DNA of 64,000 bases from contig CAMYMR010000002.1 in the NCBI GenBank assembly GCA_947259285.1, forward strand, positions 1-64,000, read 5' to 3'. Source of the DNA: an uncultured Woeseiaceae bacterium (GTDB taxonomy: Bacteria; Pseudomonadota; Gammaproteobacteria; Steroidobacterales; Woeseiaceae). This document shows positions 43,606-64,000 of the stretch, one piece after another; the stretch's first letter is position 1, and each line of letters starts with the position of its first letter. A program made the translations under genes and the position numbers. The notes beneath the pieces are model-generated. The model made no database searches. It was not told the origin of the DNA and saw nothing but the letters and a program-made list of their open reading frames with translations.

Positions 43606-43972
43606 CTGAGAGAGCCGGAGTCGGCCAGACAATCGCTGCAGCAATGCAGAGGAAAGTCCGGGCTCCTTCGGACAGGGCGCCAGGTAACGCCTGGGGGGCG
43701 TGAGCCCATGGAAAGTGCCACAGAAAACAAACCGCCGGCATCGCCGGTAAGGGTGAAAAGGTGCGGTAAGAGCGCACCGCGCGACTGGTAACAGTTCGCG
43801 GCACGGTAAACCCCGCCCGGAGCAAGGCCAAATAGGGGAGTGCGAGCTCAAGGCTCACCGTCGGTTCCGAACGGACTCCCGGGTAGGTTGCTAGAGGCAG
43901 CTGGCGACAGCTGTCCCAGATGAATGGTTGTCGATGACAGAACCCGGCTTATTGCCGGCTCCGGCTCTCTCA
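43606..43972 (+). ncRNA. rnpB: RNase P RNA, bacterial type A
   Basis: Conserved GAGGAAAGTCCGGGCT near the 5' end, GGTAAGGGTGAAAAGGTGCGGTAAGAGCGCACC, and ACAGAACCCGGCTTATTGCCGGCTCC near the 3' end; termini approximate. Confidence 0.97.
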
Positions 43973-62201: not shown

Positions 62202-63110
62202 ATGCTTCGACAACGCACCTTGAAAACCACGATTCGCGCGACCGGCGTTGGCCTGCATACAGGCGAAAAGGTCTATATGACCCTGCGTCCCTCGGCCGAG
62301 AACTCGGGAATAACGTTTCGTCGCATTGACCTCGATCAGCCTGTCGATGTACCGGCCGACCCGCGCCTTGTCGGGGAGACCATGCTTGGTACGACCTTGA
62401 TCAAAGACGGCGTCAAGGTGGCGACCGTCGAGCACCTGATGTCCGCCCTCGCTGGGCTGGGAATCGACAACCTTTACGTCGATCTGTCCGCGCCGGAAGT
62501 GCCGATTATGGACGGCAGTGCCGGGCCATTCGTGTTTTTGCTGCAGTCTGCCGGTATCGAGGAGCAGAATGCGCCAAAGAAGTTTATTCGCATCAGGAAG
62601 AAGATTCGGGTCGAGGATGGCGACAAGTGGGCGGAACTCGTTCCTTTCAACGGGTTCAAGGTCAACTTCGAAGTCTATTTCAATCATCCGGTCTTCAATA
62701 AGCTGTCGCAAGGCGCAACGATCGACTTCTCATCGACCTCTTTCCTTAAAGAAGTTAGCCGCGCGCGTACGTTTTGTTTCCTGCGCGACGTCGAAGCCCT
62801 GCGGGAACGCAACCTGACGCTCGGCGGCAGCATGGACAATGCGATTGTTCTTGATGACTATCGAATACTGAATGAGGATGGCCTGCGCTACGCCAACGAA
62901 TTTGTTATTCATAAGATTCTTGATGCGATCGGCGACGTCTACTTACTCGGACACGGGCTTATTGGCGAACTGCGCGCTTACAAATCAGGACACGATCTGA
63001 ACAACCAGCTGCTGCGTGCGTTGCTCAGCGACAAGTCGACCTATGAAGAAGTGACCTTCGCGGATCCGACCAAAGCCCCGATCTCTTACGCGACGCCTTC
63101 TTACGCCTAA
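62202..63110 (+). CDS. lpxC: UDP-3-O-acyl-N-acetylglucosamine deacetylase
   Basis: [31 protein letters not shown]-type start; [35 protein letters not shown]. Confidence 0.98.
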
Positions 63111-63429: not shown

Positions 63430-63729
63430 TCAGCTCTGGCTGACACGCACTCGGCAGACGTGCGCCTCGACGCCTGACGCACGGGCCGCTTTGAGCAGCG
63501 CTTCGGTTTCATAACGAAGCCGGCTTGCCCAGGCCGGTGTCGCAGCAATCACGACGAGCTCGCCACTTTCCCGCACATTTGCGGCAACGATGCCCTGCGC
63601 CTCGTCCGGCGGCAAAGCGCGAGCCAATACCTCTGTGAGCTCGCCCATCTCGCGGGCGCGTCGAACTATGTCACCTAAATCCCCGTCATTACAGGGGTTT
63701 AGTAGATTTCCGAGCTGTTTTGTGGTCAT
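63430..63729 (-). CDS. DUF721/DciA-like protein
   Basis: 99 aa; GELVVIAATPAWASRLRYETEALLKAA, typical DUF721/DciA core; lies next to lpxC. Confidence 0.75.
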   Translation of the reverse strand: MTTKQLGNLLNPCNDGDLGDIVRRAREMGELTEVLARALPPDEAQGIVAANVRESGELVVIAATPAWASRLRYETEALLKAARASGVEAHVCRVRVSQS

Positions 63730-63799: not shown

Positions 63800-63828
63800 T
63801 TGTAATAAAAACCATCATTATGCATATT
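63800..63828 (+). promoter_or_regulatory. Predicted sigma70 promoter of the riboswitch transcript
   Basis: TTGTAA (63800-63805), exactly 17 nt, CATATT (63823-63828), just upstream of the aptamer. Confidence 0.55.
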
Positions 63829-63836
63829 GCTGCATA

Positions 63837-63925
63837 CGAGAAGGGCAAACCCGCTGAAAAGCGGCGTCGCAAATCCACCGGTCTAAGGGATTCACTCCTA
63901 CGGCAGCGGGGCTACCGAAGTGAGA
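63837..63925 (+). ncRNA. Cyclic di-GMP-I (GEMM-I) riboswitch aptamer
   Basis: AAGGGCAAACCCGCTGAAAAGCGGCGTCGCAAATCCACCGGTCTAAGGGATTCACTCCTACGGCAGCGGGGCTACCG matches the GEMM-I pattern (AGGGCAAACC, GAAA-tetraloop stem, CGCAAA-CC-CCGG-CTAA, GGCAGC, GGGGCTACCG). Confidence 0.92.
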
Positions 63926-64000
63926 AGGTACAGCAAGTCGATAATAACGCGAATAAGCGGTTGCAGGGGGCCTGCCCGCAATTGCGCAACTTGGCTGACA

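Follow-up and report, generated by a model that had tools for sequence, protein, structure and literature searches.

The class I riboswitches for c-di-GMP (c-di-GMP-I or GEMM-I; RF01051) include the closest described systems to the locus analyzed here. In Vibrio cholerae, the 5′ UTRs of gbpA and tfoX-family genes contain the class I switches Vc1 and Vc2, while in C. difficile a class I riboswitch positioned before zmpI exerts OFF control over an extracytoplasmic metallopeptidase (PMC6366702). Binding of c-di-GMP can act in either direction, ON or OFF (PMC6366702). Here, we describe a riboswitch near the right edge of a 64,000-nt stretch of DNA from an uncultured Woeseiaceae bacterium (hereafter, the window). 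We propose that this riboswitch, transcribed from its own promoter, probably acts as an OFF switch of an M23 peptidase gene, and possibly of secA behind it, by way of a translated leader ORF that is coupled to the M23 start codon.

An earlier note on this DNA had recognized a GEMM-I aptamer, reading rightwards and divergent from a dciA-like gene, and had proposed a covariance-model search as its check. When we scanned the whole window (cmscan, Rfam 15), RF01051 matched at 63834–63919 on the plus strand over its full length (1–87), scoring 72.8 bits where the gathering threshold is 35 (E-value 2.3e-12). The dciA-like gene was found on the minus strand at 63430–63729 (PF05258 DciA, 43.1 bits; cut-off 24), and beyond it lies lpxC on the plus strand (62202–63110; TIGR00325, 401.5 bits; cut-off 187). 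Across 32 orthologues, the RF01051 helices covary: 90.9% of cells are paired and both sides change in 11 pairs, and no shuffle reached the real value on either cells or score. The pocket bases G20, A47 and C92 are present in the window's aptamer and invariant across 48 aligned sequences from the genus, in Vc2 numbering transferred to the RF01051 alignment. The aptamer occupies a 5′ UTR position on the same strand as the downstream M23 gene, and this position is kept in relatives. At the level of sequence, it is confirmed as a canonical c-di-GMP-I aptamer. The same genome contains five RF01051 matches above the cut-off. The same scan of the window also identified a bacterial RNase P RNA of class A at 43617–43966 (316 bits).

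The aptamer begins 5 nt past the −10 hexamer of a promoter sequence, TTGTAA-N17-CATATT, located at 63800–63828 on the plus strand (TTGTAA at 63800–63805, CATATT at 63823–63828). A generic sigma-70 scan did not flag this sequence. Its conservation in 48 aligned relatives nevertheless makes it more than a chance occurrence, in keeping with the earlier note, which had placed this promoter ahead of the aptamer. It is near-invariant across the 48 orthologous leaders: the GTA of the −35 hexamer and CATTATGCATA around the −10 hexamer do not vary, and the −10 hexamer is either CATATT or CATAGT. From the promoter's position, transcription is expected to start near the aptamer's first bases. At some M23 orthologues that do not have the aptamer (L173, L204 and L218), a similar promoter-like element, GCATAGTT, is found near the gene, as if an aptamer-leader cassette had been inserted behind an older promoter.

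The earlier note had also suggested that the target, immediately past the window, might be a gene for the cell wall or for secretion, and extending the sequence to the right revealed both kinds in succession. The first plus-strand gene past the window's edge encodes an M23 peptidase, with its ORF starting 120 nt after the aptamer, well inside the few hundred base pairs within which a plus-strand gene had been anticipated. Next come secA and a MutT-like gene, the latter assigned by eye, then zapD, which is encoded on the opposite strand, and genes for type IV pili. The M23 ORF begins with a membrane segment and a coiled coil, both recognized by eye, and this part has no Pfam match. In the window's genome, the Peptidase_M23 domain (PF01551, 99.4 bits) was matched on a C-terminal piece in another frame, as this assembly carries a 64-nt deletion, compared with the intact relative L041, that breaks the frame. 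The frameshifted gene spans L006:3040–3908 on the plus strand, equivalent to window positions 64039–64907. The deletion may be an assembly error or a real loss. In relatives, nearly all M23 genes are intact with 310 codons, and a gap-free alignment of 16 orthologues conserves the zinc motifs NHTGxDF and LHFEV, which supply the HxxxD and HxH ligands.

Matches of M23 to its nearest named relatives point to the Woeseiaceae as the family of the organism, and the arrangement of aptamer and M23 gene is conserved throughout the host genus. M23 orthologues are present in 70 of its 73 genomes; 69 of these 70 loci have an aptamer in the equivalent position, and the last (L107) has a decayed remnant. The distance from the aptamer to the M23 start is 94–152 nt in all loci but one of the 70. 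Rfam's c-di-GMP-I family matched the M23 site in 39 of 40 loci tested, and a covariance model that we built from 32 sites matched all 70, L107 as a remnant only (19 bits, in a 1.4-Mb genome). Among 37 named loci with an aptamer, dciA is divergent in every one, and in 36 of them M23 is followed by a secA of the same orientation. Nine families of the order have an aptamer ahead of M23 (f1, f2, f3, f4, f7, f9, f10, f11 and f15), although one genome of f4 (G063) holds only an 18-bit remnant there; we found no aptamer before M23 in families f5, f6, f8, f14 and f16. Of 274 genomes sampled evenly across the class, 155 carry an M23 orthologue; when coordinates were matched, only the two genomes of this genus in the sample showed an aptamer beside it. 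Together, these sequence comparisons support a link between the riboswitch and an M23 peptidoglycan peptidase, possibly extending to secA.

Three reduced genomes of the genus (1.4–1.5 Mb) each have one GGDEF gene, compared with 7 to 29 in four others, and their M23-linked aptamers (L107 in G050, L081 in G004 and L101 in G011) have decayed. Against Rfam, these three aptamers gave no match, 49.9 bits and 61.7 bits, and most intact ones score higher. Within this comparison of three related genomes, the pattern fits a decay of the aptamer where c-di-GMP signaling shrinks.

We now turn to the region between the aptamer and the M23 gene. In the window's genome, a leader ORF of 40 codons starts with GTG at the aptamer's edge and runs on the plus strand from 63920 to 64042, past the window's end at 64000; its TGA stop codon overlaps the M23 start codon as ATGA (64039–64042). 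The same design recurs among orthologues, generally with about 40 codons, an ATG, GTG or TTG start at the aptamer's edge, and usually an ATGA stop. In 93 of 96 loci, no stop codon interrupts the leader frame between aptamer and M23 start, compared with 31.0 (sd 4.3) expected from dinucleotide shuffles; the other frames are open less often (the M23 frame in 26 loci and the third frame in 7). A start codon lies within −1 to +4 of the aptamer's edge in 88 of 94 loci. At offset zero, the in-frame start codons are GTG (45), TTG (12) and ATG (4), and where the TG at this offset has been lost, an ATG is usually found at +2 or +3. The leader thus combines a start codon, an uninterrupted frame and a stop codon overlapping the next start, as in a translationally coupled leader ORF. 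M23 orthologues without the aptamer have no consistent open leader frame, and most of the other riboswitch sites examined do not combine a start codon at the edge with a coupled frame. At two other loci, a long ORF begins no more than 3 nt from the edge of a riboswitch aptamer (by eye, an FAD-oxidase-like gene at L008:5496–6920 and an ATPase-like gene at L038), and the aptamer itself may hold the gene's ribosome site there.

We next considered what selection has maintained in the leader. Mapped onto a maximum-likelihood M23 protein tree, leader length has changed at least 27 times and start type at least 24 times, and the frame is still open in 91 of 94 loci. Shared ancestry is therefore no explanation for the open frame. 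The pN/pS ratio of the leader is 0.96 in the largest group and 0.85, 0.83 and 0.78 in three others, with similar values in shifted frames; consequently, the open frame is kept and the peptide is not. We rejected the leader as a conserved peptide on this lack of amino-acid constraint, and as an N-terminal extension of M23 because it is in the wrong frame in nearly all loci. Separately, AAN-rich stretches in the leader may be Hfq sites.

The proposed mechanism builds on what the alignments establish, namely a c-di-GMP-I aptamer, its conserved place before M23 and secA, a leader frame reaching from the aptamer's edge to the M23 start codon, and freely varying leader amino acids. Ribosomes would load onto the leader ORF, for which a GGGG on the 3′ side of helix P2 in the aptamer would serve as the Shine–Dalgarno (SD) sequence. 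On reaching the overlapping stop and start codons, these ribosomes would drive the translation of M23. Binding of c-di-GMP would lock the aptamer, hide the GGGG site and stop leader translation, thereby lowering M23 expression, so that high c-di-GMP would mean less peptidoglycan cutting. The leader start lies 8 nt past this GGGG, whose use as an SD sequence may be coincidental because GGGG is found in nearly every GEMM-I aptamer. Imposing P2 in folding calculations lowers the probability that the leader SD is unpaired from 0.23 to 0.06, as predicted values, a change that partly restates the imposed helix; the corresponding value for the M23 SD remains at 0.41/0.42. No local influence of the aptamer on M23's own start is therefore visible, but the aptamer could control the start of the leader. 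The OFF direction is inferred from these predicted features.

Other expression platforms were sought and set aside. The earlier note had pointed to 63950–64000 as the place to look for one, and no intrinsic terminator was found there or elsewhere between the aptamer and M23. A helix P1 closing over the start codon was rejected, as the aptamer's own flanks pair no better than permuted ones (−4.58 versus −4.68 kcal/mol); the 5′ and 3′ flanks also show no covariation, which leaves sequestration of the start codon by a closing P1 unsupported. In one clade, the leader contains a conserved hairpin (GCAAGUU...AACUUGC) with two-sided changes in its inner helix, but another clade has no consensus for it, and we rejected it as a general platform.

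Among the possible mechanisms, we rank OFF control by translational coupling first, with two rivals that accept the same aptamer and target. An ON switch, in which the bound ligand would abolish an alternative fold and thereby increase translation of the leader and M23, has precedent in that riboswitches of both directions exist (PMC6366702), and the minimum-energy fold of the window's leader does differ from the native aptamer. However, this alternative fold is no stronger than those of shuffled sequences (z = 0.53), and the likely leader SD sits inside P2, where the bound fold should hide it; we consider the ON direction unlikely, though a serious contender. The output could instead be transcriptional, with ribosomes on the leader keeping Rho off the transcript until c-di-GMP blocks leader translation and Rho terminates before M23 and secA. 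Such polarity would explain an open ORF without amino-acid constraint equally well, and it agrees with the missing intrinsic terminator, but it does not need the stop codon to overlap the M23 start, as it does in nearly all loci, whereas coupling does. Sequence does not otherwise separate these two outputs, and we judge Rho polarity to be somewhat less probable than an ON switch. A third proposal, in which the leader peptide is itself a functional small protein and both genes form an operon under the riboswitch, draws on the conserved start, frame and stop, and on peptide sequences shared within some clades, such as those of f9. Against it, the pN/pS ratios of about 0.8–1.0 are not clearly below those of shifted frames, and the peptides vary widely among clades in both sequence and length (15–50 aa), making this proposal improbable.

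The identity of the ligand was weighed in the same way. The aptamer might sense 3′,3′-cGAMP or belong to the RF03167 'GGC' variant, as RF03167 obtains the best E-value at some orthologous sites and A20 replaces G20 at the sites of family f9. For the window itself, we consider this very improbable. The window and the 48 genus sequences have both G20 and A47; the A47 of the sites, which are of GACGCAAA type, differs from the G47 of the RF03167 consensus, GACGCGAA, so by that base they are not GGC variants. Likewise, the window's G20 sets it apart from the A20 of GEMM-Ib (cGAMP) riboswitches. We observed A20 in no family but f9 (the MnTg04 clade; L110, L111, L113, L170 and L171), at the M23-linked aptamer, while other sampled aptamers of f9 genomes with the common architecture keep G20. 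Position 20 is presumably the pocket base whose change has been described in c-AMP-GMP-responsive variants. A pocket-base change is common in these variants (PMC9481103), and a change of ligand at this one f9 site is possible on sequence grounds. A separate subfamily of c-di-GMP-I aptamers, distinguished by a long P3 and a length of about 113 nt, stands before small, probably secreted proteins (L004 and L005 in the window's genome, and L223–L228 and L232 in f9); in its f9 copies, the G21–C46 pair is swapped to C–G (GCCAAA...GACGGAAA).

The riboswitch class is already known; what appears new is a deeply conserved target and an unusual coupled relay ORF. In the open-access papers searched, we found no report of a secA-linked M23 target or of a leader ORF that begins where the aptamer ends and is coupled to the next gene, although the target may have been listed earlier. 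Via the OFF relay, the aptamer could act at a distance through a frame that must stay open but whose sequence is free. Other riboswitches can be screened for such a pattern, which would be overlooked by seeking only terminators or masked SD sequences. If true, M23 and perhaps secA would be under direct c-di-GMP control across an order, with a direct RNA link from c-di-GMP to peptidoglycan cutting inside a conserved division, envelope and secretion neighborhood of marine-sediment bacteria. More tentatively, and at slightly below even odds, we suggest a combined picture. The aptamer would itself contain the ribosome binding site of a relay ORF, about 40 codons long and free in sequence; ligand binding would act by letting ribosomes in or keeping them out, and those that pass would reinitiate at M23. 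Direct control of M23 and perhaps secA by c-di-GMP would then be order-wide, with an f9 site bearing the A20 typical of cGAMP sensing.

Compared with known systems, the locus shares with the RF01051 class its aptamer sequence, fold, pocket bases and place upstream of an envelope gene. The target shares its M23 domain with the LytM-type endopeptidases ShyA and MepM, and among solved sequences ShyA and other M23 peptidases resemble it most closely. It differs from them in an N-terminal transmembrane segment and coiled coil without a Pfam match and in its linkage to secA; its peptidase function is predicted. As at C. difficile zmpI, a c-di-GMP switch stands ahead of an extracytoplasmic metallopeptidase, but ZmpI cleaves surface proteins whereas M23 enzymes cut peptidoglycan, and the C. 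difficile class I switches act by transcription termination whereas no terminator was found here. Like Vc1 and Vc2, this is a gammaproteobacterial class I switch in a 5′ UTR, with different targets. In Vc2, the ribosome site that is masked to repress translation lies at a distance from the aptamer; in contrast, the site proposed here would lie inside the aptamer and act through the leader ORF.
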